A DNA stretch of 64,000 bases from positions 1-64,000 of the IMG/VR virus record IMGVR_UViG_3300047470_000395. One strand, 5' to 3'. Position numbers and translations under genes: made by a program. The DNA comes from a virus. This document shows positions 3,725 to 51,853 of this stretch, piece by piece (position 1 is the stretch's first letter; each line of letters opens with the position of its first letter). The notes under the pieces are model-generated. The model was not told the origin of the DNA, ran no database searches, and saw only the letters and a list, made by a program, of their open reading frames with translations.

Positions 3725-3949
3725 ATGGACGTCGCCCAGTCTCAAGCCGCCACAGTGCCTCTCACGGCCGCCGAGCGCGCCCGGGTGGAGATCGCCGCGG
3801 CGGTCGCCGGGAAGACGTTCGACGACTTCGTGCGAGACGCCGTCCTCACCGCGGCGTACGACCCGCTCGTCGTCGCCCTCGATCGGGCCGCCGACACCGT
3901 CGCCGCCCGCGCCCAGGCCGACCAGGTCCAACACGACTACGCGGGCTGA
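3725..3949 (+). CDS. Small antitoxin-like (DUF1778-like) protein
   Basis: 74 aa. The segment LTAAERARVEIAAAVAGKTF followed by DDFVRDAVLTAA resembles the ribbon-helix-helix N terminus of DUF1778 antitoxins and small plasmid-type repressors. No toxin gene lies next to it, so a toxin-antitoxin role is not supported. Upstream, CTGACG (3691-3696), a 16-base spacer and TACGGT (3713-3718) make a reasonable vegetative promoter. The ATG begins six bases after that -10, suggesting a leaderless transcript. Confidence 0.6.
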   Translation: MDVAQSQAATVPLTAAERARVEIAAAVAGKTFDDFVRDAVLTAAYDPLVVALDRAADTVAARAQADQVQHDYAG

Positions 3950-3978
3950 ACAACCGCCCGGCCCTACACTGCCGCTCC

Positions 3979-7292: not shown

Positions 7293-7748
7293 TCACTCGG
7301 CCGGGTGCGCGTCCAGCCACCGCGACAGCTCATGCGCGGAACCGAGGACCGCCGGCCGGTTCGTCCCGAAGGCCGTGGCGCCCTTGTCCTCCCCCACCGC
7401 GATCCCGTCCTCCATCTTGTTGATCAGGACGTACGCCCCCGACCAGAACTCCGGCCCCGTGCCCTTGTCCGCGCGCATCGCCGTCCGAAGAGTCCGCACG
7501 GGCCCCATGAGCGCCTGCATCTGCTTCCAGCACGTCCCCGGCTCCTGCTCGAGGCAGCCGCCGTCCGTATCGAACTTCTCCACCGCGGCCTGGAACGTGG
7601 TGGTGGCCTCCCCCAGGCTCACCGTCTTCGCCTTCGCCGCCGGCTTCGCGTCGTCCTTGGCATCCGAGCTGCCGCAGCCGCTCACGGCCGCCACGGTCAC
7701 GGCCAGGACCACGCCCACGGCCGTCTTCCCCCACGTGTGTCTCCCCAT
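7293..7748 (-). CDS. Secreted lipoprotein
   Basis: 151 aa. Lipoprotein signal peptide: basic MGRHTWGKT, hydrophobic core AVGVVLAVTVAAV and lipobox VSGC with the lipidated Cys at residue 25, then a GSSDAKDD linker. The mature part is a small helical domain with a cysteine pair (GGCLEQEPGTCW). It should sit on the outer face of the cytoplasmic membrane. Prophage lipoproteins are often expressed from the lysogen and may alter the surface or exclude superinfecting phage; no direct evidence for that here. It stands alone between two terminators. Confidence 0.8.
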   Translation of the reverse strand: MGRHTWGKTAVGVVLAVTVAAVSGCGSSDAKDDAKPAAKAKTVSLGEATTTFQAAVEKFDTDGGCLEQEPGTCWKQMQALMGPVRTLRTAMRADKGTGPEFWSGAYVLINKMEDGIAVGEDKGATAFGTNRPAVLGSAHELSRWLDAHPAE

Positions 7749-7828: not shown

Positions 7829-8266
7829 TCACGCCCTGGTGTTGGACCTGCCTCCCAGCACGTTCACGTTCCTGATGTTGACCGTCTTCGGCCTGCGCAG
7901 CGCAGCCACGATCCTCGCGACGACGATCATGAACACGATGCTGGCGATGGTCGTACCGAACCCCGTCGCCGCGGCGAGGAGCTGACTGGCACCCGTGAGG
8001 AGGTGCCCGCCGCCCCAGGCCGCGACCCCGAAGCCGACGCCGGCGCCGACCATACGCTGAGCCTTCACGTCCAGGAGCGGCTGCGGTGCCAGGTCCCGGG
8101 GCGGGGTCGGCGGCGTCGGCTGCAGATCAGAGCGACGGATCTGCACGGACTTGTTCCGGTCGTACGGGTCCTGGACGTGCACGATCGGGTCGAGTTCGTC
8201 GCGCATCTCCACGGCGCCCACGACCGGCTGAGGGGTGTACGAGCGGATCACAGGCTTGCCGGACAT
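7829..8266 (-). CDS. Two-TM Spd-like spread protein
   Basis: 145 aa, starting inside the 3' end of the translocase gene (19-bp overlap), so the two are coupled. The N-terminal half is soluble and proline-rich. Two hydrophobic segments follow (about residues 72-92 and 98-120), then a basic tail (RRPKTVNIRNVN). Small membrane proteins in this position behind a TraB/TraSA-type translocase are the Spd proteins of Streptomyces plasmids and integrative elements, which help spread DNA between hyphal compartments. The Spd call rests on context and topology, not on a sequence signature. Confidence 0.6.
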   Translation of the reverse strand: MSGKPVIRSYTPQPVVGAVEMRDELDPIVHVQDPYDRNKSVQIRRSDLQPTPPTPPRDLAPQPLLDVKAQRMVGAGVGFGVAAWGGGHLLTGASQLLAAATGFGTTIASIVFMIVVARIVAALRRPKTVNIRNVNVLGGRSNTRA

Positions 8267-10248
8267 GCGGGGCTCTCCTTGCTGGTGTCGTCGACGTCGA
8301 CTTCGGGGGTGTGCTGGGCTGCGGTGAGGACGAAGACCACCGACCGGTCGCGCTTGCCGTTCTCCTCCACCCAGCCCTGACCGACCCACTGGGACAGCCA
8401 CGGCGAGATCGACGAGTGGTGGTTGCAGATCCCCATGCGGACCGCTTCGCCCTTGGTCAGGCCCTCCGGCCCGGCCTTCTCCAGCGCGCGCCACAGCTCC
8501 AGTCGGTTGTCCTCGATCCGGGAGCCGTCCGGGTACATCGGGACGGCGCGCAGCACCGGCCGGCCGCCGCCCCGCGGGCCGCCACCGCGCGGGGGCGGAG
8601 GGGGCGTCGGGTCCGGATCGGGGTCCAGGTCCGGGTGCGGGCGGACGTCCGCGTCCGTGTCCTCGGCAGCCGGGGAGTGCTCGCGGGACGTCTCGAGGAT
8701 CTCCTCCTCGGTGATCCAGTAGCAGCGGCCTTCGTTCGGCGTCGTGTACCGCTCGGACGAGACCATGCACTTGCCCGGCAGGTCGAGCTCGTCGAGGCGC
8801 CAGCCCTTCCCGTACGCGCCCGTCCCCATGATCATGTTGATGGGGGTCGGCTCATTGACGGGCAGGCCGATGCGCACGCCGAACTGCTGCCGGGTGTCGG
8901 TGCCCTTCCCGCCGAACGCCTGCTCGCTGGGCGACTGGGTCGCGGCGATGATGCGGATACCCATGGCGCGGGACACCTGCATCAGCGTCATCAGCTCGGA
9001 CGCCACGTCGGGCGCCTGGCGGATGAGCTCGGCGAGCTCGTCGATGATCAGGACGATGTACTTGCCGTGCTTCCGGGTCCACTTCTTGACCCGCTCGCCC
9101 TTCGGGCCGCGCAGCGTCGACAGGTGCTTGCCGCGCCGGGTCATCTCGCCCTTGAGCCAGACCAGGACCTGACGCGCGGTGTCCGGGTCGTCGGCGAGGG
9201 CGATCATGTTGTCGCGCCACGGGCCCAGCTCGAGCGCGCCGGGCTTCATGTCGATGCCCGCGAGGTCGACGTCGCCGCAGGCCACGAGGTTCGCGGCGAG
9301 GACGTTGACGGCCCCGGACTTGCCCTTGTTGGTGCCACCGGCGACCAGGACGTGCCCGTCGACGATGTCGACCAGGATCTCGCTGCCGTCGGGGTAGACA
9401 CCGATCGGGATGGGCTGCTCGATCGAGTCGATGCGCACGCCCGGCCACGAGATGCCGGGCCCGGCGAGCGGGTCGGTCGTCTGCAGCCGCACGATCAACT
9501 GGTTCGGCTGCGCGCCCTCGGTGAGACGGAGCCGGCCGGGGAGGTCGAGGTTCGCCTGGAGCTGCTGCCGCTTGGCGATGACGAAGGCCGCGGACGTGTT
9601 CTTGCCCGGGGGCAGCGTCACCAGGCAGTACCAACCGGTCTCGGTGAACACGATCCGGGAGACGTCGACCGCAGGCACGCCCAGGGCCACCAGGGCGCGG
9701 CGCAGCGCGGTCTCCTCCTCGGTGTCGCCCGTGACTCCGGCCTGGCCGATGTTGACGCCCATCCCGTCGGGCAGGGTCGCGGTCTTGGCCGCCTTGATCT
9801 GCAGGTTGAACCGCTCGTGGCGGGACTTGATCAGCCACGGCACGTACACCGCGTACGAGGAGATCGTGACGACACCCGAGGCGATGAGCGACGGGACGGT
9901 CGGGCCGGTGATGGCGCCGATCGCCGTGTTCACGATCGTGCCCGTGGAGGCGACGCCGAGAGAGGTGGCGAGTCCGTTCTTGTGCTTGATACCGCCCCAG
10001 GTCAGGCCGCCCGCGGCGGCGAGCGCCACGCCGTACCCGGCGTACGCGGCCGGTGTGACGCCGGCGAGGTGGTGGAGCCAGCCCAGGCACGTCATGCCGA
10101 ACGTCACCGCGGCCGGGGCCAGTTCGTAGCGCATCCGCCCACACCAGCGGCACACAGCCTCGGCCATGCGGCGCGTACGGCCGTGGGGCGAGACCTCGTC
10201 TATGGGCGGCGGGGTGACGTGATCGGTCTTCTCGCGAGGGATGAACAC
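8248..10248 (-). CDS. TraB/FtsK-SpoIIIE-type DNA translocase
   Basis: 666 aa. Two to four hydrophobic segments lie in residues 40-140, followed by a motor domain with Walker A GGTNKGKS at 304-311 and Walker B IIDELAEL with D403-E404. ATQSPSEQAFGGKG further on matches the FtsK/TraB family. A proline/glycine-rich linker and a C-terminal winged-helix-like domain (about 580-650) complete the TraB layout, the wing being where these proteins read DNA. Such hexameric pumps move double-stranded DNA between Streptomyces mycelia. GTG start at 10248 with GAGGTG upstream. An alternative is a phage FtsK-like packaging or segregation helper. First large gene of a leftward operon behind two operator palindromes. 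Confidence 0.88.
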   Translation of the reverse strand: MFIPREKTDHVTPPPIDEVSPHGRTRRMAEAVCRWCGRMRYELAPAAVTFGMTCLGWLHHLAGVTPAAYAGYGVALAAAGGLTWGGIKHKNGLATSLGVASTGTIVNTAIGAITGPTVPSLIASGVVTISSYAVYVPWLIKSRHERFNLQIKAAKTATLPDGMGVNIGQAGVTGDTEEETALRRALVALGVPAVDVSRIVFTETGWYCLVTLPPGKNTSAAFVIAKRQQLQANLDLPGRLRLTEGAQPNQLIVRLQTTDPLAGPGISWPGVRIDSIEQPIPIGVYPDGSEILVDIVDGHVLVAGGTNKGKSGAVNVLAANLVACGDVDLAGIDMKPGALELGPWRDNMIALADDPDTARQVLVWLKGEMTRRGKHLSTLRGPKGERVKKWTRKHGKYIVLIIDELAELIRQAPDVASELMTLMQVSRAMGIRIIAATQSPSEQAFGGKGTDTRQQFGVRIGLPVNEPTPINMIMGTGAYGKGWRLDELDLPGKCMVSSERYTTPNEGRCYWITEEEILETSREHSPAAEDTDADVRPHPDLDPDPDPTPPPPPRGGGPRGGGRPVLRAVPMYPDGSRIEDNRLELWRALEKAGPEGLTKGEAVRMGICNHHSSISPWLSQWVGQGWVEENGKRDRSVVFVLTAAQHTPEVDVDDTSKESPACPASL

Positions 10249-10254
10249 GTCACG

Positions 10255-10311
10255 TCACCTCGCCAGGAGGGACGCGGACAGGCGGACAACGGCTGCGGTG
10301 CGCGAGGGCAT
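10255..10311 (-). CDS. 18-codon ORF ahead of the translocase
   Basis: ATG at 10311 with an AAGGAAC ribosome site, coding MPSRTAAVVRLSASLLAR, and a stop six bases before the translocase GTG. Its start sits at the same place, relative to the conserved hairpin leader, as the starts of two full-length genes elsewhere (16038 and 17070), which argues that it is translated. Probably a leader peptide or coupling ORF. Confidence 0.45.
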   Translation of the reverse strand: MPSRTAAVVRLSASLLAR

Positions 10312-10354
10312 CGGGGTGTTCCTTCGTTCGTGGTCTCGGCGGTGCTCTCCGCCG
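10309..10354 (-). promoter_or_regulatory. Conserved hairpin leader, copy A
   Basis: On the transcribed strand, GCGGAGAGCACCGC (10339-10352) forms a small hairpin, followed by CGAGACCACGAACGAAGG and AACACCCCGATG. The core lies 28 bases before the ATG. Related leaders precede the genes at 16038 and 17070. Confidence 0.65.
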
Positions 10355-10398
10355 TGGGGCCTGGCCATGACGCCAGATGTTCGGTTGTCGCGGGTGGG

Positions 10399-10647
10399 TT
10401 ACGGGCCGGGCGGCCCGAGCGTCACGGGGTCGGTCGTCTTGTCGTGCCAGACGTAGCCCCACTGATGACGACTGGTCATCTGTGTTTCGGGTGGGAGCGC
10501 GCGCCCGGCGATGGCTGCCACGGCCGTGGTCATGCTGTCCACGGCGTCCATGCGTTTGGCCGTGCGCACGTTGGTCGGGGTGCCCGGCGGGATCGTGAAC
10601 TGGAAAGTCACTGTGAGCACCCGCGGGGCCTCTCGCTCCGACGTCAT
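10399..10647 (-). CDS. Small hypothetical protein of the transfer-like operon
   Basis: 82 aa from ATG 10647, chosen over 10680 because GAGGGGGGA lies at the right distance. The sequence has a beta-strand start (VLTVTFQFTIPPGTP), a short helix and a WGYVWHDK segment; no family recognised. It is the first gene downstream of the two operator palindromes. Confidence 0.65.
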   Translation of the reverse strand: MTSEREAPRVLTVTFQFTIPPGTPTNVRTAKRMDAVDSMTTAVAAIAGRALPPETQMTSRHQWGYVWHDKTTDPVTLGPPGP

Positions 10648-10707
10648 TCGTCCCCCCTCTGGATCAGACACAGCCCTCATTGTGCCTGATCTGTCGGGGA
10701 GATTGAT

Positions 10708-10797
10708 AGTTCTCCGGGAGAACTCGCGTCCTTAGTGGCTACGAAACAGGAGTGGCCTGGCCTTTTCTAGAAGGGTTCGCACGTTCTCCGGGAGAGT
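10708..10797. promoter_or_regulatory. Pair of operator-like palindromes
   Basis: AGTTCTCCGGGAGAACT (10708-10724) is a perfect 17-bp palindrome and GTTCTCCGGGAGAGT (10783-10797) is a near copy, with centres 74 bp apart, about seven helical turns. Both lie between the end of the gene at 10806 and the start of the 10647 gene, upstream of the leftward operon holding the translocase. Paired operators at this spacing fit looping by a repressor, as in transfer-gene control of Streptomyces plasmids (KorA/KorSA logic). The cognate regulator is not identified. Confidence 0.7.
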
Positions 10798-10805
10798 TGG
10801 GCCCT

Positions 10806-11474
10806 TTACGAGGCGTCCTCCTCGAGGCGCCCGTGCGCCAGGTGCTCCTTGCAATTCGCGCACCGCAAGGTCCCCGGACGACGCGGGTGATCCTCCAGGA
10901 TCGTCGGCCCGCACGTCGGGCACGTGAGCCTGACGCGCTGCAGCGGCCGCGGCACGGCCGGCTCGAGCGGGTCCGCCCCATGCGGGGTCGCCGCGTCGTA
11001 CATGTCATTCCACGTGAACCGCGTGCCGTCCCGGTCCGGTTCCGACTGATGCCAACCGCCGGGCTGGTCTCGCACGGGCATGAGCGACGGGTCGTAGTGG
11101 CCAACCGGCCGCCCACAGGAGACCCGGCCCGCCATGGCGTGCAGCATGGTCGCGCTGCAGGTGGTCACCTCGCCCGTGCACTCCGGGCACGGTACGGGCT
11201 TCGGCTCCCCGTGGTAGCTGTCCCACTGGGTGAAGTCCGGGATCACACCGCGGCCACGGCAGCGACGGCAGGGCGGGGCCGGAGGCTTCGGCGGCGGGAA
11301 TGACACCTCGAGCTTCACCAGGTCCGGGTGCTTCTCCGACGGGCCGAGCGCGTCAACCTGGCAGTGCAGGGTGACCGTCCGCCAGCCCTCGAGGGGCAGC
11401 GTGGAAGGCAGCTCGCCCTTGAGCAGCTCGGGCAGCTCCTCGGCGGTGATCTCACCTCCCGGCCGGGCCGTCAT
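10806..11474 (-). CDS. Multi-zinc-ribbon protein
   Basis: 222 aa, function unknown. A central CRRCRGRG and CPECTG pair resembles a DnaJ zinc module, and the C terminus has a second ribbon (CPTCG, CANCKEH). The N-terminal 65 residues form a separate alpha/beta segment with the strand HCQVDALG. Overlaps the upstream gene by ATGA. Last gene of a long leftward operon of small cysteine-rich proteins; its stop is close to the operator pair. Confidence 0.75.
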   Translation of the reverse strand: MTARPGGEITAEELPELLKGELPSTLPLEGWRTVTLHCQVDALGPSEKHPDLVKLEVSFPPPKPPAPPCRRCRGRGVIPDFTQWDSYHGEPKPVPCPECTGEVTTCSATMLHAMAGRVSCGRPVGHYDPSLMPVRDQPGGWHQSEPDRDGTRFTWNDMYDAATPHGADPLEPAVPRPLQRVRLTCPTCGPTILEDHPRRPGTLRCANCKEHLAHGRLEEDAS

Positions 11475-16038: not shown

Positions 16039-16083
16039 CGGAGGTGTTCCTCTCTTCGGGTGAACAGCGGTGCTCTCCGCTGT
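16036..16083 (-). promoter_or_regulatory. Conserved hairpin leader, copy B
   Basis: ACAGCGGAGAGCACCGCTGT on the transcribed strand (16064-16083) is a seven-bp stem with a six-base loop. It is followed by an AGAGAGGAACACC ribosome-binding stretch and the ATG at 16038, 29 bases from the core. Same core as copies A and C. Confidence 0.7.
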
Positions 16084-17070: not shown

Positions 17071-17112
17071 CGGGTGCTCCCTCTTGGTGGTCTCGGGCGG
17101 TGCTCTCCGCCC
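17068..17112 (-). promoter_or_regulatory. Conserved hairpin leader, copy C
   Basis: GGGCGGAGAGCACCGCCC on the transcribed strand (17095-17112) forms a six-bp stem with a six-base loop, followed by CGAGACCACCAAGAGGG and the ATG at 17070. Apart from two bases, the stretch between hairpin and ribosome site matches copy A. Confidence 0.7.
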
Positions 17113-32772: not shown

Positions 32773-32800
32773 CTTGCCCAATTGGGCAAGAACGATCTTG
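32773..32800 (+). repeat. 28-bp palindromic element, copy 1
   Basis: CTTGCCCAATTGGGCAAG (32773-32790), followed by AACGATCTTG (32791-32800). It lies 23 bp before promoter motif copy 3 and 72 bases before the predicted leaderless start of the giant gene. Confidence 0.85.
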
Positions 32801-32823: not shown

Positions 32824-32854
32824 CGCGACGCTAACCACGCGTGATGTGCATGGT
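32824..32854 (+). promoter_or_regulatory. Phage promoter motif, copy 3 (giant protein)
   Basis: CGCGACGCTAACC at 32824, CATGGT at 32849-32854, ATG 32862 seven bases later. No Shine-Dalgarno; leaderless start predicted. Confidence 0.7.
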
Positions 32855-32861
32855 CCGCGCC

Positions 32862-35800
32862 ATGCTGAATCGCCCCGCTGCTGCGCACGCTGAGTTGCAG
32901 GACCTGAGTGACGGTCTCGAGGTCAAGGCCGCCCGCCGTTGGAACCCGTCCCTGCATCCTCGCGACAGCAAGGGCCGGTTTATCGAGACGGGCGGCATCG
33001 TCCGCCTGTGGGGAGGCGATCTCGCGCGCGTCATGCGCGCCCTGCCGAACGATCGCATCCTCGTGCAGGACCAGACCGGCCCGGACGAATTCAACGGCCG
33101 CAGGCACACCACCAGCGCCAAGTGGGTGTCCATGGTGGCCCGCCCCGATGGCTCCGCGCCCACCGACAACGAGCACAAGGTCGAGGCGGAGGACGAGAAG
33201 CGGGACAAGGACGCGCGGCGCGGCAACGGCGTCGTCCATGACGACATCGGCGACCCCGACACCCCCAACGACGCCCACGCCGTCGACGACCGCGGCCGCG
33301 CGATCGGCGAGGACGACCACCCGGTCGGGCCTCGCGAGAACGACGACCAGGACGAGCCGGAGCACGGCAGGCACCCGGTCAACGTCCGCGCCCTGCCCAA
33401 CCAGAGCACCGCGGGCGGTAGCCGCTTCCAGGACACGGCGGCAGTCCGTCAGCACTTCCTCGACCTGGCCGACCGGCCCGACACCCGGCCGGAGATGGCG
33501 CAGTTCCTGCGTTCCGTCGCCACTGACGAGGACCTGCGCGTCTCGGGCGACCTGGCCGTCCTCCGCGACGACTCCACCGGCCGCTGGTACCTGACGGCGA
33601 CCGGCACCGGTCAGCGCATGGACCTCGCCGGGGACTTCGCCACCCCCGAGGAGGCCAGCGAGTTCGCGCGCCATCTCAGGCGCACCGCTCCGACCAAGGG
33701 CACTGCGATCCGCTCCCTTGCCCGGGGGTTCGACTTCTCCAACCCCGACCTTGACGCCGAGGCGCGCACCTGGCGCTCGGACAGGGACGAGAACATCGCG
33801 GCCGCCATCAAGCGGGCCCGCGGGGAATTCGACGCTTCCCGCTCCGCCCCCGCCTCCGATGCCGCCCGCGCCCCGCACGCCGACGCCGGCACCCCGGAGA
33901 CGGTCAGCCGCGAGGAGCTCAAGCCCGGCGACCGCGTCAAGGTCACCGTGAGCCGCAGCGACATCGAGTGGCCGACGAGCACCCGCGACCAGGACAAGCC
34001 GGAGACGGTCACCGTCGAGGGCACCATCGCGCCCACCCACTCGGCCGGCCCGGGTGTAAGCGGCGCAACGCTCGTCGACGTCACGCTGACCAGCCCGGAC
34101 GGCACGGTCATGACGTCCGGCGACACCGCACGCATCCGGCGCATGCCCACCCAGGTCGCACGCTCCGGGCACACCGACGGCTTCACCCCGGAGGAACGGC
34201 GTGCCGACCGCGTCCGTGTCGGCGACGTCATCGCCCGCGGGGAGTTCGGGCACGTCGTCACGCGCATTGACCGCGGTCAGGGCGGCCGCGCTTTCACCAC
34301 GCGCAACCTCGGCGGCCGTGGCGAGGTCGACCAGTTCGGCGCCCGCCACGGCGACATGCTGTCCGTCGTCCCGAAGGCCCGCCGCCGGCCGGAGGATGTG
34401 CAGCGCGACACCCCGGGCCACACACAGCAGCACCCCAACAGCAGGGATGCCAAGGGCGCGGCCGCGGCGATCCTCAGCGACTGGGCGAAGGTCAACGAGC
34501 TCGCCGCGCAGCAGTGGCCGGACGGGGCACCGGAGGAGTTCCGCACCCTGGCCCAGCACATGCAGAACGTCACGGACGCCCCGAAGGGCGCCGACGGCTA
34601 CCAGCAGAACGCCGACGCGATGCGCGGCGCCCTGGACGCGCTCCACGGCCTCGACAGCGAGGGCGTCAGCCAGGACATGGTGAAGGCGCTGCACCGGCTC
34701 GAGGAGGGCCTGGACGCCAACGCCGACCGGTTCGAGGCCGACTCCCGGGCGATCACGGAGAACAAGCGGAAGCGCGAGGCGGTCAACGCCCCGAACCCGG
34801 ACGCTCCAGCCGCCCCGAACGCCCCGCAGAGCAACGCCCCCACGAACGACCATCCGACGGGTGAACCGCTACAGCACAACTGGGACCCCGAGAACCTGGT
34901 CACCCTGACCATGCCGGAGGCGCTCGCGAACTTCCTGAACGTCGACGAGACCGCGGCCATGGAGGACCCCGACACCCGGAAGGCCCTCACAGAAGCCGTC
35001 CACGGCCGCAACGGCATCCTCAAGGTGACCGCACCGATCGAGACGCACCGCGCCCTGCTCGAGTGGGCGTGGACGCTCGCAGGCGGCGAAGGACTGGACT
35101 CCGACCCGAAGGAAGTCCGGGCCCACCGCAACTACACCAAGCGCGTCGACGAGGCCGCGGCAAAGCTGGAGCGCGAGCGGCAGCACCGCGGCGCCCCGGA
35201 CGCGAACGGGAACGCACCCGACGCCGGCACCGATGACGGTAAGACGGACGCGCCGTCGGCCAACACCCCCGGCGCCGACACCAGCGAGCCGCAGAACACC
35301 CCGGACACGGTCACCATGACGCCCGACGAGGTGTCCAACCACCTCGACGCGGTGCGCCCCGAAGGCTCCAAGGCGCCGTCACGCATGGACGACGGCGAGA
35401 TCCGCGACGAGATCGTCTCCCTGATGGAGCGGGAGATGGCCAACGGCGGGGAGCTGTCGGGAGTCGACCGCACCCGCCTCCAGGTCCTCGAGGCGGAAGA
35501 GGCCCGCCGCGCCGGCCGCGCGCCGAAGCGCGAGGACAAGCCGAAGCCGAAGCCCGCGGAGGAGCCCGGCGGCCTGTTCGACGTCGCCCCGGACGAGCAG
35601 CAGCAGTTCGTTGCCGACCCGAACAACCCCGACGACCTGGCGGACGACCCGCTGGGCACGCCGGACATGTTCGCCAACCACGAAGGCCGCGACACGTCCC
35701 GGCTGCGCCCCCCGCAGTCCCGCAAGCCTGCCGACTTCAAGCCCGGCGACCGGTTCGTCGACACCGACGGGCGCACCCACACCGTGAAGGAGGAGCCGAT

Positions 35801-38800
35801 ACGGACCCCGCGCGGCCGTATCCGCGTCGTCGATGAGGACGGCGGAGAGCACTTCCTCGCACCGGACAAGGAGCTGCGCGTCCTGCACGAGGGCGAGGAC
35901 GCCCCCGCGGTGCCGGAGACCAACGCCCCCGACGCGAACGCGCCGGAGAGCGGTGCTCCGTCCGCGGACACCCCGGAAACCGGCACACCGGGCGCCGACG
36001 CTGCAGACACCCCCAACAACGCGCCCGAGGGCGGCACCCCCGACACCCCGGACGACTCCGTCGCCCCGCCCGCCCCGGTCGGGGATGCGTCCCCGACGAG
36101 CATGAGCAACGAGGACATCGACGCCGAGCTCGAGGCGCTGCAGGCGTGGCAGAACCGGCACGTCGCAAGCAGCGGGGAAGGCCCGCGCGTTCAGGGCAGT
36201 CCCATGGTCGCTCTCTCTCCTGTCGGCAACCGGCGGGGCGCCCTGCGCGAGGAGCAGCGCAAGCGTGAGGTGGCCCGCCAGGACAAGGAGCGGAAGGAGA
36301 AGGAGAAGCAGGACCGGGCCGCAGCGCTCGCCCGTTCCGAGATCGGCAACCGCGCCGCTGACGGCTCGTACCCGGTGACCGTCGACGGCGAGAACGCCGG
36401 CAGCGTCAGCCAGACCGCCCGCAAGTGGCAGTACACCGACGCCGAAGGCCGCAGGTCTCCCGACTTCTACCCGAGCCGCGCCCAGGCCGTGGCCGCGCTG
36501 GTCAGCAACCGCGACGTCCGCCGGAACAACGACGCGCAGCACGCTCGCCAGGATCAGGCGCGTACGCAGACGCCGAACGGGTGGGCTCTCGGCGACCGCG
36601 CCGACGTGGCCGAGAACGACATCATCCGTATCCCCCGGATGGGCCGTGACCGTGACGGCAGGCCGTACCCCGAGGGCTGGGGCCAGCCGGTCCGCGTCAA
36701 CCGTGTGGAGCGCCGGGACGACGGCACGACGATCGTCTCCTACAGCAACCCGGACGGCTCGTATGCGGGAGGCAGCCCGCTGTTCCTGCGGGGTCCCGAC
36801 GACTCGTTCGCGTGGGCCAACGACCGCACCCGCCCGGAGCCGACCCCCGCGTGGCGGCACGAGCTCCGTCCCCGGATGGCCGACATCGGCGACGACGTCG
36901 CCACCCTGCTGAACCACGCCGACGGCCTCGACGACCAGGACCAGGAGCGGATGCGGCGCCTGGGCGAGCTGATCCGCCGCGTAGAGGACGGCGACACCGA
37001 GGATCTGCAGGCGGACCTCCGCAAGATCCGCGACGAGGCCGCGTGGCTCGAGGAGCAGTTCAGCCGCGAGGACCTGCCGTTCGAGACGCGCAGGTACAAG
37101 TCGTGGGCCACGGCCGCGCACGGGAAGGCACAGCGGTCCCTCGACCACCCTGACTTCCAGCACGGCAGCACGGCCGACGGCCCGGACAACGCCCCCGGCA
37201 ACGCCCCGGACGCGGACGCGCCGAGCGCCGATGGCGTGCCCGACTGGGCCAACGACCTCGGTGACGGTGTCTGGCTCGACGAGCCGAGGAGCACCGGCGG
37301 GCCCCGGAACATCTACGTCGACGGCCAGATTGAGGGACTCCTCGGTCGGGACCGGCCGAAGGGCAGGTACTACTGGTGGCGGCCGGGGGGCCAGACCAGC
37401 CAAGAACGCTTCGACACCCCCGAAGAGGCCGCCCGCGCCTTCGCCCGCGAGATGCGGGAGAACAACCTGCCGAGCCTGAGCACGCCCAACGACGGCGGCA
37501 ACGGCCACGACGACCGCGCCAGCCGTGCCCGGGACCTGTTCGGCGAGGGCATGAACGCCGTGGGCGGCGACTCCCTCCCGGAGATGCAGGAGCTGAACGA
37601 CCGCCTCGGCCGCGCTGATTCCTCGGACGACCGGGATGCGGAGCTGCGCGACGTCGCCGACCGCATGGACGAGCTCGCCGACCAGTACGGGCTCGCAGGC
37701 CCGCAGGGTGAGCTTGCCGCGGACCAGTTCCGTCGCGCCGCGCGCGCCGCCCGCGGTGAGCACGACGACCACAACGGCGACAACGGCGACGGCCAGCCCG
37801 ACGCCACGCCCATCACCGACGGCGAGTCCAACAACGGCCAGGACGACCAGCAGCGCAGCGACGACCAGGGCGACGGACAGCAGGACGACAACCAGCCCAG
37901 CAACCAAGACGACAACCAGGGCGACAACCAGGGCGACGACGAGGAGAGCCGTCGGCGCGACAACCCCAACCCCGACGGTGACGCGGCCGGCCCCGACGGC
38001 GCCCCCGACGGTGGCGGCCCGGGTGCGCCCGACGACACCAACGACTCGAGCGACTCCAACAACGACCAGAGCAACGGTCCCGACAACTCGGACGACTCGA
38101 CGGACGAGCCCAACCCAGACGAGGAGAACCAGGACTCCGAAGAGGAGAAGCGCCGCAAGCGTCGCCGCCGCAATCGTAACGGCGGAGGCGGTACCGGTGG
38201 CCCCGGCGGGGGCGGACCGGGCGGGCTTGGCCTGCCGCACCTGAGCCTGCCGAACCTCAACGTCCCCGCCGGAACGGGCGGCAACGGTGGCAACGGCAGC
38301 CACGGCGACGGCCACCACCCGCGTACGCCTCACAACCCCCGCCCGCACGACGTGGACTCCCTGCGGAACGCCTGGCGATCCGGTCAGGGACTCACCGCGG
38401 GCGAGGACACCCCCGAGCGGCGCGCCCACCTCGCCGATCTGGCGGACCGCGAGGGCCTCACCCTGTCCCCCCAGGGCGGACTCGCCCTGTATCCCGAGCA
38501 GCAGGACGACGGCACCACCGTGTGGCGCTTCGCCCAGGCCCGCAACGGCTCAAACCTGCCCGGCATCACCCTGACCACCGACGACCCCGAGGAAGCGCGC
38601 GCGCTCGCGGGCAGGTTCGAGGAGATCACCGACGCTAACGGCGACCCCTTCGACTGGCACCAGCCGCAGGGACCGGCCAGCGTCGCCGCGTGGCGTGACG
38701 GGGAAGGCCGCACCCTGCCCCAGGCCATCCGCGCGGTGCAGGACGACTACCAGCAGGAGCGCGCCGGAGCGTTCAACCTGCCCGAGGACCTCACGGGCAT

Positions 38801-41800
38801 GGACGACGCCGACCTCGAGGCCGCCATGCGGCAGGGCCTCGGCCCGGAGGACGAGCTCCGCGTCATGGCGGAGATGGACCGCCGAGACGGCTACGTCGAC
38901 GAGCGGGTCCGCGCTGCCGCGCAAGCCACGCCGCCGACGAACGCCGACGAAGCGGAGCGCGAAGGCCGCGCCATGGACGAGGCGCTCCGGTTCGGCGACA
39001 CGGACGTCACGCAGCCCGCTCCGGCCACCCCCGGACGCCTGCGCCGTGAGTTCGACGCCCTCGACGAGGAGCGTTTCCAGGCCGCCATGCAGGCCACCGG
39101 CGGGCGGATGCTCAGCCCCGAGGCCGAAGCCCAGGGCATCGACCCGCGGGCCCTGTTCTCCGGCGGCAAGTACAGCAACAAGCAGGCGAAGGAACTGGCC
39201 TCGCCCGAGCTGAAGCACTGGTTCGACGGAGACGACAACACCCCCGGCAACGGCCGACTCACGTACCCGCAGTACCGGGCGCGGGAGACCGACCGCGCCC
39301 TGCGCGCCGAGTTCGCCGACTGGGACGAGGCCCGCTACCGGCAGGCCGTCGACTTCACGAACGGCTACTTCTTCCGCCGCGAGTACAAGTACGGCTTTAC
39401 CGACTTCAACGAGCGAGAGCTGTTCTCCGGCGGCAGCCTGAGCGCCCGGGACCGGTGGATGCAGTACGCCAGCGACGAACTGCAGGAGTGGTTCGACCTC
39501 AACGGCGGCCGCCAGACATTCGCCCAGTTCCGCGAGGCACGCCGCGCCAACGACCGCGCCGAACGGCACCAGCACGAGGAGGAGGAGCTGCAGCGCGCCG
39601 CCGGGGGCACTCCCGAAGGCGGAGCCCCCAACGGGGCGGGACCCCTCACTGACGACGACGTCACCCCCGCGCCGCCCTTCAACGCCGCCACCCCCGAGAG
39701 CGAGTCCGACGCCTCATTCCGCTTCGGCGGCCGCGACCGTATGCAGCAGTTCGCCGACCGAGCCGAGGTACGCCCGGACGGAGCCACCTCCGAGGGCGTG
39801 TGGCTCAACGGCCGGCAGATCGGCACCATCCACAACGTCAACGGTGCCAACGCCGACCGTGAACCGGTCTGGGACGCCAGCCCGTTCTACGGCCTGGACC
39901 ACTCCGCCAACAGCCGTTCCCAGAGCCGGGACACGGCCATCGCCAACCTTGTCGTCCGCGCCCTGCAGAACGGCCCCACGGACTCCTCGAACCCGAGCGA
40001 GGACATGTGGGACTCGGTGACCCTGCACCTGGCAGGCCTCACCCACCCGCTGCCCGAGCTGCCGGAAGCCCTTCGCGACGACCCGGAGGCGCGCGCCCGG
40101 TACGACCGGCTGTCCAGCATGGTCGACTCCTTCCGGGACCAGCAGTCGCCCACCGGCGACCTGCGCCAGGACCTGGCGCAGGCCCGCGACGACTTCGCGT
40201 GGCTGCACGACGCGCTCGAGGGACAGGCGCGTACCCCCCAGCAGCGCGAGGAACTGTCCGACCTCAAGACCCGCACCTTCTGGGCGGACCGTCTCCAGCA
40301 CGGTCTCGGGGAGCCGAACAGCGACCTGGAGCGCCCCCACGCTCCCGGTGAGCCGCAGGGCGCCGGAGATGCGCCGTCCCCGGCGGTGCCGACGCCGGAG
40401 CCGGCGAACGCCCCGGACGACACCGCCGATCCGTCGGCGACACCCGAACCTGAGCCTGAGCCGAACCCGGACCCGATCGGCGGCCAGCCCGCGCACTGGG
40501 CCCGCGTCGGGGACTTGGCGCAGGGCGACATGGTCCGCATGAACGGCACCACCAGGAGGGGCCGGCCGGTCCAGCGCGCCGGATACGTGCAGAGCACGCC
40601 CGAGCTGGTCGACGTCACCCGCCGCGGCCGCACCGACCAGATGTGGCGTACCTGGGTCACCGAGAACCCGGACGGCACCGGCGCTGCCGGGAACGTCTAC
40701 ACGTCCGCCAACGCCACCGCGGCGCGCGCCGAGGCGCCGGACAACGTCGTGCCCGGATCCCCGGCCAGCGGTGCCCAGGCGTCGCTGCGCTCCGGTGATC
40801 TGCCCGACCAGATCCCCGCCGACCGTGACGGCAACGGCCTGTTCCCCGGCAGCACCGTCCGCGGCACCAACGACCGTGAAGGCACCATTACCGGTGCTGC
40901 CCCCACCACCGTGTCGGTGCACTGGTCCGACGGCAACGACGACGACGCGCTCCCGGCGACCACGCTGACCGTGACCAACGCACAGCGCCCCGACGGCTGG
41001 ACCGCCGACGGGCACCGGGTGACCACACAGAGCATCGTCAGCGACAGCGACGGCGCCCTCCTCGGCCCCGTCGACGACGTCGCCGGAGACAACGTCACCG
41101 TCCACACGACCGACGGCACCATCACCCGCAGCGCGGGCGACCTCCGCGTCACCGGCCAGGTGCGCGACGACGCACCCCCGACCGCACCGGTGACCGGCAT
41201 CGACGAGCCCGCGGCCGCGGACCTCAAGGACGGCGACGTCGTCGTCCTGGACCTCGACGGCCAGCTCTCCACCGTCGCGATCACCAGCCCGCCCCACCAC
41301 GACGGCGACCGCGTCACCCTGCAGTACGCCGACACCACCACCGGCGAGATGGGCGAGATCGACGTCGACGCCCGCGCGGTCCTCCCACGCGCCCAGGGCC
41401 CCGACGGTGGCGCCCCGGACCTCGGCCCGGACAACGCGCCGGAGCCGGCCGACGACCTGACCGTGCACCCGACCCCGCGCACCGTGGACCCGGTGACCGG
41501 CCCGACCGTCGATCCGGACCTCGACTCGAGCGACCGGAACGTCATCGGTGACCACGCCGACGGCCCGGACACCGACCCCGACGCCCACCAGGCGGCCGTG
41601 CGCATCACCAGCGACCTTCCCGTCACCCCGGAGCAGGCGCAGGCCCTGGCGACGCAACTGCGCTCTGCCGCGGACCCGTCGACGCTGGAGGGCCGCGCCG
41701 CACTCCGCGCCGCGGACCACCTCGACCGCGCCGCCGGCCGGACCCCGCCCACGGGCCTTGACCGGCCCCGGGCGTCGAACGCCGCACAGATCGGCGAGGG

Positions 41801-44333
41801 CGACCTGGTGGCCATGCCGGACGAGCGCCACGGCGACCAGGTGCGTGTCTTCCGCGTCATCGACGCCGAGGACGGCCCCGGAGGCGTGCGCAGCTTCCTC
41901 CTGGAGGACGAGAACCAGCAGTGGCGGCGCCGCGTCGTCCACGGGGCCATGCCCGTGTGGCAGCTCCCCGAGGCCGAGCCGGAGCCCGTTGTCCCGCCCG
42001 ACGTCGACGACACCGACGGCGCACCGGACTCTGCGGGTGACTCCGGATTCGGTATCCCCGGGGGCCCGATGCGCCGCGCTGGAGACGACCCTGCCGCGCC
42101 GACCGCCCCGACCGCTCCGACCGCCCCGACCGCTCCGGCCACGCCGGACGGCTCGAGCACCCCGGACGAGCCCACGGCGCCCGTCGCCCAGGTCCGCCCG
42201 GGAAGCCTGCGCCGCGGCGACGTCATCGACGCGCCCGTGAGCCGGACCGGCTACCAGTTCAACGGCCACCGGCGACTGACCATCATCAGCGAGCCGCAGC
42301 GCAACGGCTGGTGGATGCAGCTCACCGGCGTCGACGAGGACGGCAACGTCCACGACTTCGGGCTGCACAACGGCCGTGCCGTGAACGTCTACGACCGGAA
42401 CCGGCCCACCCCGGCCCTGCCTCCGGCCGGTACGCCCCGCGACCCCAACCAGGTGCCGCAGACCGACCTCAACCAGCTCGTCACCGACCACGGACGCGCC
42501 CACGCCGCCCGCATCATCGACGAGGCCATCGCAGGCACGGAGCCGCCCGGCGACATCCACGCCCTGCGTGAGGGCATCGCCCAGCGCCTCACCCCGGATG
42601 CCCTGGCCAACGCCCGCCAGGCGACCCGCCAGGACGGCATCGCTGCCCTCGACGCCGCGAGCATCACCGGCCGGGACCGGGCGAGCGCCCAGCGCCGCCT
42701 GCGCACCACCCGCAACCGGGCCCACGACGACACCGTGCGCGCGGCCCTGCGCACCATCAACGACCTCGAGCCCCTCGACGGCGAGAGCAACGAGGACCTG
42801 GCGGCCCGCGCCCGGGACCTGCTGCGCCTCATCCCGGACCAGGTCGCCGGCCGCCCAGACGCCGACCCCGACGCCGACCCCGACGTCACCCGGGCCGTGA
42901 CGGGACACGCCGACGACGCGGTGAACACGCTCCTGCAGCAGCTCCAGGCCGCGGGCGTGGACCCGGGCGACGCCGAGCGGATCGCCCGCGTGCTCACCCA
43001 GCAGATGGCCGGGACCCGGCAGGCCACCGCCCGCCGGATCGCGCGCCGGGTTGCCGCGGCGAACCCCGACGCCGGACGACAGCCGGGCCTCCTCGCCCGG
43101 ATCGTCGCCGCCCTGGTCCGCCTGGCCAAGCGGTTCGGGGAGCTGGTGAAGCAGGGAGCCCGGACGATCGCCGAGAAGTACCGCGACTCGCGCGAACGCC
43201 TCGCCCGCCTGCGCGCCTTCCTGGGCCGCATGGTGCGCCGTGTCCGGCAGTGGCCGGAGTCCCGCCGCCTGGCCCGCCTCCACCGTGCGGTGAACCTGCC
43301 GGACACGGACGGCGAGTCGCTCGCCGCACGGATCAGCCACTGGGCCGGACTCATGCCGGAGCCGGGCCGGTTCGGGCAGTCGCAGCGGCGCCTCACGTTC
43401 TGGCGGCCGACCACGTGGGCGCGCCTCGCGTCCGGTCATCTCCCGGACCGGTCGGACCGGATCCAGTGGACCCCGGACCGTGCAGCCGACGGCGGCCCCG
43501 GCCTGACCGGGCTCCGCCACATGGCAGCCCTGCGAATGGCCGGCCAGGACGTCGACACCGACGTGACCCGTCGTCTGTCCGCCGCTCTCGGCGACGACTT
43601 CGGGGACGACCCGCACGTCACGCTGCAGCACGCGGACGACTACGTGGCCGCGAGCGAGCGCCGCCTGGTCAACCTGCAAGCGGCCCGCAGTAGCGCGACC
43701 ATCCCGGACGACCCCGACCTCGACATCGAGATCACGGGCGCCCGCTCCGAGCTCGCGGCCGCCCGCCGGGAGTACTCGGACCTGCGGACGCGATACGCCG
43801 CCGCCGTGCCCGACGCCGTGGCCGCGTCCCTGGCCGACATCCGCGACATGGGCCCCGAGGGCACCGCCGCGATCGTGTTCGGCCCTGACACCGACCCGGA
43901 CGCCGAACGCGCCGTGCGAGGCGTCCAGCGGCTCATCCCCCGGTCATGGCTCAACACCGCCGAGGCACGCCGCTTGACGGCCGTGGACGGCACCCAGGGC
44001 CGGTACGAGCCGGAGGGACAGCGGGCCACGGTCGCCGACCTGGCCGACGAGGGACTCGGCACGGCCGGGTTCGCCCTGGGCCAGCACTTCGCCGGACACC
44101 TCGGCGACCTCGACGCCGCGCAGCGCGCGTTCCAGTTCAGCCGGACCCACACCGGCCGGCCGGGCGCCCGCCGGATGCAGCGCAGCCCGTGGGACCGGAT
44201 CCGGCGACGGCAGCAGACGCAACCGGAGACCGGTGACACTCTCGCCCGGTCCATTCAGGCGATGTTTAGTGGCGACTGGTACCAGGACGACGACATGCGC
44301 GCGTTCCTCCTGGGCCTGCTCGCCACGCGATAA
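32862..44333 (+). CDS. Giant modular virion-associated protein (polyvalent-type)
   Basis: 3,823 aa, 18% of the window. The leaderless ATG 32862 is preferred to 32841, which lies in the promoter. Starts with HPRDSKGRFIETGG, a common opening of head-associated proteins. Many small modules are joined by Ala/Pro/Asp linkers. About nine are GDxV barrel modules (near residues 352, 451, 958, 1250, 2552, 2660, 2787, 2978, 3117). Others are a repeated 'VDGxxxG...W...SRxxA' unit (1169, 1468, 2312), helical hairpins, and two tandem LFSGG modules (2060 and 2147). A Gly/Asp/Asn/Arg tract (about 1640-1790) divides the protein. The end holds a basic amphipathic stretch (3409-3470) and a zincin-like fold with HFAGH (3742-3746). 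Such proteins after MuF are thought to enter the cell with the DNA. Confidence 0.8.
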   Translation: MLNRPAAAHAELQDLSDGLEVKAARRWNPSLHPRDSKGRFIETGGIVRLWGGDLARVMRALPNDRILVQDQTGPDEFNGRRHTTSAKWVSMVARPDGSAPTDNEHKVEAEDEKRDKDARRGNGVVHDDIGDPDTPNDAHAVDDRGRAIGEDDHPVGPRENDDQDEPEHGRHPVNVRALPNQSTAGGSRFQDTAAVRQHFLDLADRPDTRPEMAQFLRSVATDEDLRVSGDLAVLRDDSTGRWYLTATGTGQRMDLAGDFATPEEASEFARHLRRTAPTKGTAIRSLARGFDFSNPDLDAEARTWRSDRDENIAAAIKRARGEFDASRSAPASDAARAPHADAGTPETVSREELKPGDRVKVTVSRSDIEWPTSTRDQDKPETVTVEGTIAPTHSAGPGVSGATLVDVTLTSPDGTVMTSGDTARIRRMPTQVARSGHTDGFTPEERRADRVRVGDVIARGEFGHVVTRIDRGQGGRAFTTRNLGGRGEVDQFGARHGDMLSVVPKARRRPEDVQRDTPGHTQQHPNSRDAKGAAAAILSDWAKVNELAAQQWPDGAPEEFRTLAQHMQNVTDAPKGADGYQQNADAMRGALDALHGLDSEGVSQDMVKALHRLEEGLDANADRFEADSRAITENKRKREAVNAPNPDAPAAPNAPQSNAPTNDHPTGEPLQHNWDPENLVTLTMPEALANFLNVDETAAMEDPDTRKALTEAVHGRNGILKVTAPIETHRALLEWAWTLAGGEGLDSDPKEVRAHRNYTKRVDEAAAKLERERQHRGAPDANGNAPDAGTDDGKTDAPSANTPGADTSEPQNTPDTVTMTPDEVSNHLDAVRPEGSKAPSRMDDGEIRDEIVSLMEREMANGGELSGVDRTRLQVLEAEEARRAGRAPKREDKPKPKPAEEPGGLFDVAPDEQQQFVADPNNPDDLADDPLGTPDMFANHEGRDTSRLRPPQSRKPADFKPGDRFVDTDGRTHTVKEEPIRTPRGRIRVVDEDGGEHFLAPDKELRVLHEGEDAPAVPETNAPDANAPESGAPSADTPETGTPGADAADTPNNAPEGGTPDTPDDSVAPPAPVGDASPTSMSNEDIDAELEALQAWQNRHVASSGEGPRVQGSPMVALSPVGNRRGALREEQRKREVARQDKERKEKEKQDRAAALARSEIGNRAADGSYPVTVDGENAGSVSQTARKWQYTDAEGRRSPDFYPSRAQAVAALVSNRDVRRNNDAQHARQDQARTQTPNGWALGDRADVAENDIIRIPRMGRDRDGRPYPEGWGQPVRVNRVERRDDGTTIVSYSNPDGSYAGGSPLFLRGPDDSFAWANDRTRPEPTPAWRHELRPRMADIGDDVATLLNHADGLDDQDQERMRRLGELIRRVEDGDTEDLQADLRKIRDEAAWLEEQFSREDLPFETRRYKSWATAAHGKAQRSLDHPDFQHGSTADGPDNAPGNAPDADAPSADGVPDWANDLGDGVWLDEPRSTGGPRNIYVDGQIEGLLGRDRPKGRYYWWRPGGQTSQERFDTPEEAARAFAREMRENNLPSLSTPNDGGNGHDDRASRARDLFGEGMNAVGGDSLPEMQELNDRLGRADSSDDRDAELRDVADRMDELADQYGLAGPQGELAADQFRRAARAARGEHDDHNGDNGDGQPDATPITDGESNNGQDDQQRSDDQGDGQQDDNQPSNQDDNQGDNQGDDEESRRRDNPNPDGDAAGPDGAPDGGGPGAPDDTNDSSDSNNDQSNGPDNSDDSTDEPNPDEENQDSEEEKRRKRRRRNRNGGGGTGGPGGGGPGGLGLPHLSLPNLNVPAGTGGNGGNGSHGDGHHPRTPHNPRPHDVDSLRNAWRSGQGLTAGEDTPERRAHLADLADREGLTLSPQGGLALYPEQQDDGTTVWRFAQARNGSNLPGITLTTDDPEEARALAGRFEEITDANGDPFDWHQPQGPASVAAWRDGEGRTLPQAIRAVQDDYQQERAGAFNLPEDLTGMDDADLEAAMRQGLGPEDELRVMAEMDRRDGYVDERVRAAAQATPPTNADEAEREGRAMDEALRFGDTDVTQPAPATPGRLRREFDALDEERFQAAMQATGGRMLSPEAEAQGIDPRALFSGGKYSNKQAKELASPELKHWFDGDDNTPGNGRLTYPQYRARETDRALRAEFADWDEARYRQAVDFTNGYFFRREYKYGFTDFNERELFSGGSLSARDRWMQYASDELQEWFDLNGGRQTFAQFREARRANDRAERHQHEEEELQRAAGGTPEGGAPNGAGPLTDDDVTPAPPFNAATPESESDASFRFGGRDRMQQFADRAEVRPDGATSEGVWLNGRQIGTIHNVNGANADREPVWDASPFYGLDHSANSRSQSRDTAIANLVVRALQNGPTDSSNPSEDMWDSVTLHLAGLTHPLPELPEALRDDPEARARYDRLSSMVDSFRDQQSPTGDLRQDLAQARDDFAWLHDALEGQARTPQQREELSDLKTRTFWADRLQHGLGEPNSDLERPHAPGEPQGAGDAPSPAVPTPEPANAPDDTADPSATPEPEPEPNPDPIGGQPAHWARVGDLAQGDMVRMNGTTRRGRPVQRAGYVQSTPELVDVTRRGRTDQMWRTWVTENPDGTGAAGNVYTSANATAARAEAPDNVVPGSPASGAQASLRSGDLPDQIPADRDGNGLFPGSTVRGTNDREGTITGAAPTTVSVHWSDGNDDDALPATTLTVTNAQRPDGWTADGHRVTTQSIVSDSDGALLGPVDDVAGDNVTVHTTDGTITRSAGDLRVTGQVRDDAPPTAPVTGIDEPAAADLKDGDVVVLDLDGQLSTVAITSPPHHDGDRVTLQYADTTTGEMGEIDVDARAVLPRAQGPDGGAPDLGPDNAPEPADDLTVHPTPRTVDPVTGPTVDPDLDSSDRNVIGDHADGPDTDPDAHQAAVRITSDLPVTPEQAQALATQLRSAADPSTLEGRAALRAADHLDRAAGRTPPTGLDRPRASNAAQIGEGDLVAMPDERHGDQVRVFRVIDAEDGPGGVRSFLLEDENQQWRRRVVHGAMPVWQLPEAEPEPVVPPDVDDTDGAPDSAGDSGFGIPGGPMRRAGDDPAAPTAPTAPTAPTAPATPDGSSTPDEPTAPVAQVRPGSLRRGDVIDAPVSRTGYQFNGHRRLTIISEPQRNGWWMQLTGVDEDGNVHDFGLHNGRAVNVYDRNRPTPALPPAGTPRDPNQVPQTDLNQLVTDHGRAHAARIIDEAIAGTEPPGDIHALREGIAQRLTPDALANARQATRQDGIAALDAASITGRDRASAQRRLRTTRNRAHDDTVRAALRTINDLEPLDGESNEDLAARARDLLRLIPDQVAGRPDADPDADPDVTRAVTGHADDAVNTLLQQLQAAGVDPGDAERIARVLTQQMAGTRQATARRIARRVAAANPDAGRQPGLLARIVAALVRLAKRFGELVKQGARTIAEKYRDSRERLARLRAFLGRMVRRVRQWPESRRLARLHRAVNLPDTDGESLAARISHWAGLMPEPGRFGQSQRRLTFWRPTTWARLASGHLPDRSDRIQWTPDRAADGGPGLTGLRHMAALRMAGQDVDTDVTRRLSAALGDDFGDDPHVTLQHADDYVAASERRLVNLQAARSSATIPDDPDLDIEITGARSELAAARREYSDLRTRYAAAVPDAVAASLADIRDMGPEGTAAIVFGPDTDPDAERAVRGVQRLIPRSWLNTAEARRLTAVDGTQGRYEPEGQRATVADLADEGLGTAGFALGQHFAGHLGDLDAAQRAFQFSRTHTGRPGARRMQRSPWDRIRRRQQTQPETGDTLARSIQAMFSGDWYQDDDMRAFLLGLLATR

Positions 44334-44621: not shown

Positions 44622-44649
44622 CTTGCCCAATTGGGCAAGAACGATCTTG
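44622..44649 (+). repeat. 28-bp palindromic element, copy 2
   Basis: CTTGCCCAATTGGGCAAG (44622-44639), then AACGATCTTG (44640-44649), identical to copy 1. It is 22 bp before promoter motif copy 4 and 70 bases (44640-44709) before its leaderless start, almost the same geometry as copy 1. Confidence 0.85.
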
Positions 44650-51763: not shown

Positions 51764-51791
51764 CAAGATCGTTCTTGCCCAATTGGGCAAG
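51764..51791 (-). repeat. 28-bp palindromic element, copy 3
   Basis: CAAGATCGTT (51764-51773) followed by CTTGCCCAATTGGGCAAG (51774-51791): the same element as copies 1 and 2 in the opposite orientation. Copy 4 follows 62 bp later in direct repeat. Confidence 0.85.
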
Positions 51792-51825: not shown

Positions 51826-51853
51826 CAAGATCGTTCTTGCCCAATTGGGCAAG
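51826..51853 (-). repeat. 28-bp palindromic element, copy 4
   Basis: CAAGATCGTT (51826-51835) and CTTGCCCAATTGGGCAAG (51836-51853), identical to copy 3. It lies 17 bp before promoter motif copy 8. Confidence 0.85.

Follow-up and report, generated by a model that had tools for sequence, protein, structure and literature searches.

Convergent GTGAS sites and a candidate transfer translocase in a family of Streptomyces phage-plasmids

Introduction

Could a Streptomyces phage carry, beside its virion genes, a machine that moves its DNA directly between hyphae? The question is raised by a leftward operon at positions 7829-10797 of the window, the 64,000-nucleotide stretch of a 125,780-bp virus record analysed here, which a preliminary description took for a Streptomyces conjugation-type transfer operon. 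In Streptomyces plasmids, the membrane translocase TraB acts with clt in the transfer of double-stranded DNA (PMC12857230, PMC3583192). Phage-plasmids are usually thought to pass between cells as virions, and transfer of this kind, if true, would give a phage a second way to spread beside them. Current surveys search for relaxases and origins of transfer (PMC10879196, PMC12977533), so a one-protein FtsK system would be missed.

Results

Organization of the operon

The operon is arranged in the order operators, 93-aa gene, leader ORF, translocase gene and gene for a 145-aa membrane protein, all genes lying on the minus strand. The two operator palindromes of the preliminary description, with centres 74 bp apart, were confirmed: operator 1 is a perfect 17-nt palindrome (AGTTCTCCGGGAGAACT, 10708-10724) and operator 2 (CGTTCTCCGGGAGAGTT) occupies 10782-10798. 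Neither has a further copy in the 125.8-kb genome at up to three mismatches, and the chance expectation in the window is 0.01. Both are kept, again 74 bp apart, in the close relative L010, and both are degenerate, yet recognisable, in the Streptomyces phage Gilgamesh. A single perfect 17-bp palindrome would be unremarkable, as the genome holds 12 of them compared with 3-8 in shuffled sequences. Elsewhere in the window, a different perfect palindrome (TTGCCCAATTGGGCAA) occurs four times in the late-gene region (32774-32789, 44623-44638, 51775-51790 and 51837-51852; chance expectation 0.01).

The first gene after the operators (10399-10680, minus strand) encodes the 93-aa orthologue of Gilgamesh gp11. 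It is followed by an 18-aa leader ORF (MPSRTAAVVRLSASLLAR, 10255-10311, minus strand), kept in relatives, whose end lies 6 nt ahead of the GTG start of the ftsK-type translocase gene (8248-10248, minus strand; 666 aa, 80.5% identical to its orthologue, Gilgamesh gp10). We infer that leader and ftsK are translationally coupled. A convergent pair of GTGAS arrays spans the ftsK start (10209-10263) and is a candidate cis-acting site of the translocase. The 93-aa gene, the leader ORF and this pair are absent from the preliminary description. The cassette is bounded at low coordinates by a lipoprotein-like gene (7293-7748, minus strand), which is kept in relatives without ftsK, and at high coordinates by a zinc-ribbon protein gene (10806-11474, minus strand), which is kept in an S. 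anulatus plasmid that has no ftsK. Neither a GntR repressor nor a Spd homologue was found in the cassette.

Immediately ahead of the leader ATG lies a start-associated element with a hairpin (GGCGGAGAGCACCGCC and GAAGGAACACC, 10315-10354, minus strand). The element recurs ahead of other genes, at 16043-16082 and 17073-17112 of the window (both minus strand) and at three places outside it, and is made up of a hairpin with GAGAGCACC, GAGACCACGAA and GAGGAACACC, with the ATG 2-6 nt beyond. With the start-associated sequences of cluster K mycobacteriophages (PMC3203893) it has only its position in common. A clt was considered for the block conserved ahead of the leader ORF, but this idea was dropped, because the block is this dispersed element.

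The small membrane protein gene (7829-8266, minus strand) has its ATG start codon within the end of ftsK, so that it was correctly described as coupled. Its assignment as Spd-like did not hold: the 145-aa product, with one strong and one weak hydrophobic segment, has no match in Pfam, PHROG or NCBIfam, and among the compared relatives the gene is conserved only in Gilgamesh and S. zaomyceticus. It is absent from four ftsK-bearing relatives (NBC_00536, NBC_01278, 11x1 and MBT27), in which the lipoprotein gene comes next after ftsK; this gene content indicates that the protein is not an essential partner of the translocase across the phage-plasmid family. In one locus (L199, genome G023), an ftsK lacking its N-terminal part and winged-helix domain is joined in frame to the gene for the small membrane protein, with the GTGAS sites kept; this is a decayed or misassembled copy.

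The translocase

The product is the sole FtsK-type protein encoded in the 125,780-bp record. Its Walker A (GGTNKGKSG) and Walker B (IVLIIDE) motifs can be read directly, and it matches the Pfam FtsK_SpoIIIE family at E=6.6e-15 (55.6 bits against a cut-off of 24). A structure model built from 17 homologues predicts five N-terminal helices, an FtsK motor and a C-terminal winged helix, at about residues 21-156, 177-525 and 573-645, respectively. The last of these, which we call the reader, was again predicted to be a winged helix when the final 102 residues were modelled separately, in keeping with the preliminary description of this end of the protein. A Foldseek search with that model gave winged-helix regulators as weak best matches (best E=0.01), and profile comparisons of the reader with the TraB and FtsK (gamma) winged helices revealed no significant similarity in sequence. 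The five predicted N-terminal helices are long and of moderate hydrophobicity only, comparable to TraB of pCQ3. Among solved structures, the motor is best matched, by profile and by fold, by FtsK and the conjugation coupling protein TcpA.

The protein does not belong to the Streptomyces TraB family proper, as had been suggested. Plasmid TraB is its best named NCBI family, at a score of 49 bits that is far below the NCBIfam cut-off of 800, and in a tree of 41 motors the translocases of the window type form one clade (support 100/99). In this tree, whose deep branching order is not settled, the clade is separate from the main TraB clade, from host FtsK and EccC, and from other phage FtsK proteins; by tree and by fold alike, the translocase does not group with packaging ATPases. 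Tra of pIJ101 also lies outside the main TraB clade, where it branches with the phage Xkcd426 FtsK; TraB in the wide sense is therefore not a single clade in the 41-motor tree. The Xkcd426 FtsK (L028, 787-2805) and pIJ101 Tra (L019, 3897-5843) are 42% identical over 624 aa.

The phage-plasmid family

The DNA of the operon region is 79% identical to that of Gilgamesh, a sequenced 129-kb phage isolated on S. lividans, whose genome encodes virion proteins, ParA, ParB and tyrosine integrases. Six Streptomyces plasmids with sizes of 125-133 kb carry a translocase of the window type, and the terminase of these six and of a seventh, S. anulatus CP109288, is 65-76% identical. Homologues of the Gilgamesh virion proteins (TerL, portal, capsid, tail and lysin) and of ParA and ParB are present in the compared plasmids, which are circular except for the 11x1 record, labelled linear. 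A phage isolate and circular 125-133-kb plasmids with a full set of virion genes together define a phage-plasmid family, with virion genes, an autonomous circular replicon and partition genes, to which, on sequence evidence, the window genome belongs. These relatives bear out the presence of a predicted membrane translocase of FtsK/TraB type for double-stranded DNA in a real phage genome.

Three further observations concern phage and plasmid genes in such elements. Between its portal and capsid genes, the window carries a giant ORF of 3830 aa (32841-44333, plus strand), whose Gilgamesh counterpart is the 13.9-kb gp48. A 145-kb plasmid of Thermobispora bispora (L022), likely a phage-plasmid, has a related terminase (48%) and an operon in which a GntR regulator accompanies a member of the main TraB clade; this is another type of transfer locus in such a setting. 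Just downstream of traB, the conjugative plasmid pWTY27 (L025, 4603-5776) carries a gene annotated as a phage major capsid protein.

Loss and exchange of the cassette

The S. anulatus plasmid lacks the three cassette genes cleanly between its lipoprotein and zinc-ribbon genes, and in the genome G029 the slot is occupied by two genes, one of them XRE/ImmA-IrrE-like. Most of the fragments that the capsid search yielded were not complete enough to be scored as ftsK-negative. This pattern of presence and absence points to the putative pump being an accessory module; a cassette that is dispensable and replaceable fits transfer, not packaging or replication.

Exchange also affects the translocase itself. 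Between the window and S. zaomyceticus NZ_CP107934, the motors are 28% identical and the readers 85%; with G025 included, the other motor is 28-29% and the shared reader 76-85% identical to the window protein. The converse is seen between L036 and NBC_01220, which have motors 92% identical and a diverged reader (59%). Judged by these identities, reader and motor are separately inherited modules, which would make sense for a generic motor combined with a reader matched to its element.

Convergent GTGAS pairs

Enrichment of 8-mers revealed nothing specific among TRS-like words, and an Rfam search gave nothing. When the sequence around repeat clusters was read by eye, a GTGAS pentamer emerged, and the genomes were scanned with it. 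A strict pattern of three GTGAS units occurs at four positions in the window genome, and Gilgamesh, S. zaomyceticus and NBC_01220 have it at corresponding positions. The search for TRS-like repeats proposed in the preliminary description thus turned up element-specific repeats, with a unit of 5 bp instead of 8 bp.

Pairs were scanned at a threshold of 12 of 14 in the 15 complete or near-complete genomes that bear ftsK. Every one of these has a convergent pair at the ftsK start, with a spacing of 46-63 bp. A second pair, spaced 78-90 bp, was detected in 12 of the 15. It lies in a GC-rich intergenic island towards which gp76 and gp77 converge, a position that argues against a promoter role; NBC_01278, G010 and G011 have a single strong island arm at the same threshold. 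Several genomes have extra pairs near gp147-151, giving 2-4 loci per element, and nearly all copies away from ftsK fall in the island or near gp147-151. Shuffled genomes yielded a mean of 0-0.05 pairs. Nearly all pairs are convergent; divergent ones were seen only in S. ardesiacus, within a weak cluster, and in S. anulatus, as a weak overlap. In the 7.8-Mb S. ardesiacus assembly, eight of the ten strict matches lie on the phage contig; higher counts in the G005 assembly are due to simple-repeat runs. The island itself (73,500-74,100 of the window genome, outside the window; L002) spans about 0.6 kb, is packed with GCGCGC/GGCGCGCC repeats and is conserved in the family; it is possibly an origin or centromere.

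Which protein reads the sites

The S. anulatus sister plasmid, which has no ftsK, has no GTGAS sites. It nevertheless keeps ParB (76%), TerS (81%), AAA and HTH proteins, SSB and integrases, and these DNA-binding proteins are closer to those of Gilgamesh than are those of the site-bearing NBC_01278. FtsK alone among the Gilgamesh proteins occurs in each of the other 14 genomes that bear sites but not in S. anulatus, the runner-up being gp73 (13 of 14). Since FtsK tracks the sites while the other candidates stay in the site-less plasmid, this comparison makes it the best, if unproven, assignment for the protein that recognises them. The S. anulatus plasmid is the one complete genome lacking both; the partial genome G036 likewise has neither. 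The partial genome G029 (115.8 kb) disagrees, unless its loss is recent: ftsK is absent and the island pair is kept.

Reader types A, A', B and C all accompany GTGAS, and no such arrays occur in soil relatives whose reader is of another kind. In the type D soil relatives (L032, L045, L046, L048, L049 and L050, at about 3870-3960), convergent GAYGAC repeats lie at the N-terminus of ftsK and are possibly their own site. The repeat, found no more than once on any contig, codes for a poly-Ser tract that uses TCA codons. The notion that each reader type has its own motif was rejected, as types A to C share GTGAS and the type D repeat is this coding tract.

Discussion

We favour, with moderate confidence, a reading of the cassette as a TraB/clt-like pump for the double-stranded DNA of its own element, the transfer cassette of a phage-plasmid. 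The operon would be kept off by a repressor bound to the two operators. Once expressed, the translocase would sit in the membrane as a hexameric motor, as its FtsK-type fold suggests, and its winged helix is predicted to recognise the convergent GTGAS pairs found at 2-4 places on its circular genome. Loaded at these sites, the motor would pump the element as double-stranded DNA through a membrane or cross-wall, so that it reaches an adjacent hypha or compartment, as TraB does with clt in Streptomyces plasmids. By analogy with these, the element probably spreads through the mycelium as well, besides forming virions and being inherited as a lysogenic plasmid. The domain layout and fold, the matches to FtsK and TcpA and the TraB family as best NCBI match support this reading, as do the pair at every ftsK start, the near-confinement of the sites to the element and their co-occurrence with ftsK, together with the modular motor and reader and a cassette that is dispensable and replaceable. 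The island pair of G029, the dissimilarity of the reader to the TraB and FtsK winged helices, the 5-bp unit and the soil relatives that have another reader and no GTGAS arrays weigh against it. So does the absence of a demonstrable Spd homologue, given that spd genes are reported on all Streptomyces conjugative plasmids (PMC12857230).

The main rival is segregation: the translocase would clear or distribute the phage-plasmid across closing septa within one mycelium, chiefly at sporulation, in the manner of SpoIIIE/FtsK acting for one element. The fold is that of FtsK, and the relatives are circular plasmids in a septating host. FtsK guide sequences are, however, polar and genome-wide, unlike the few convergent GTGAS pairs, the S. 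anulatus sister plasmid persists without a translocase, and ParA and ParB are already there; we judge this reading unlikely. Somewhat less likely still is that the pairs are bound by another protein of the element, for partition, recombination or replication, and merely accompany ftsK. Their presence in the repeat-rich island and the retention of that pair in G029 would fit this, but ParB, TerS, the AAA and HTH proteins, SSB and the integrases are all kept in the site-less S. anulatus plasmid, and every ftsK start has a pair exactly there. A packaging or injection motor of the virion, suggested by a weak match to phrog_2666, a PHROG of terminase large subunits (E=2.7e-6), is highly improbable, since the genome has its own terminase, the nearest folds are FtsK and TcpA, and the gene is absent from a relative with full virion genes.

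Taking the transfer reading further, we tentatively propose, at slightly less than even chances, that widespread Streptomyces phage-plasmids carry a self-contained conjugation-type system outside TraB, in which an exchangeable motor and reader together with convergent GTGAS sites would allow particle-free spread through the mycelium. The swapped motor and reader pairs amount to a natural experiment on how such translocases choose DNA, and with the candidate sites the question can be put directly to the test in S. lividans, the isolation host of Gilgamesh. The literature searched, mostly open-access papers, contained no account of the translocase clade, the GTGAS sites or the motor/reader swaps, whose novelty is unproven.

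Compared with the TraB/clt systems of pSVH1, pIJ101, pJV1, pSN22, pWTY27 and pSAM2, the cassette shares a single FtsK-type translocase, predicted to lie in the membrane and to end in a winged helix, short repeats beside its gene as candidate cis-sites, operators ahead of the operon and, in the window member, a small membrane gene downstream. It differs in that the translocase forms a separate clade, the reader is unrelated in sequence, and no GntR repressor or Spd homologue was detected; its 5-bp units stand in convergent pairs at 2-4 loci, in contrast to the 8-bp repeats of TraB (PMC12857230). Phages with a transfer locus are not a new idea, since the Streptomyces phage-plasmid pZL12 has a tra locus (Zhong et al. 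2010, as cited in PMC3583192 and PMC4487206). The window genome would resemble pZL12 in combining a phage-plasmid with a conjugal transfer locus, which is predicted here; the FtsK-like protein of pZL12 is distant (21-24% over part of its length), and pZL12 has no GTGAS arrays. TcpA of pCW3 from Clostridium perfringens, among the best structural matches, is likewise an FtsK-type conjugation coupling protein, but it serves a multi-protein conjugation system in another host phylum. A direct counterpart is Gilgamesh gp9-gp11: although its operators are degenerate and its annotation reads only 'FtsK-like DNA translocase', it has the same operon, the same sites and a translocase 80.5% identical to that of the window.
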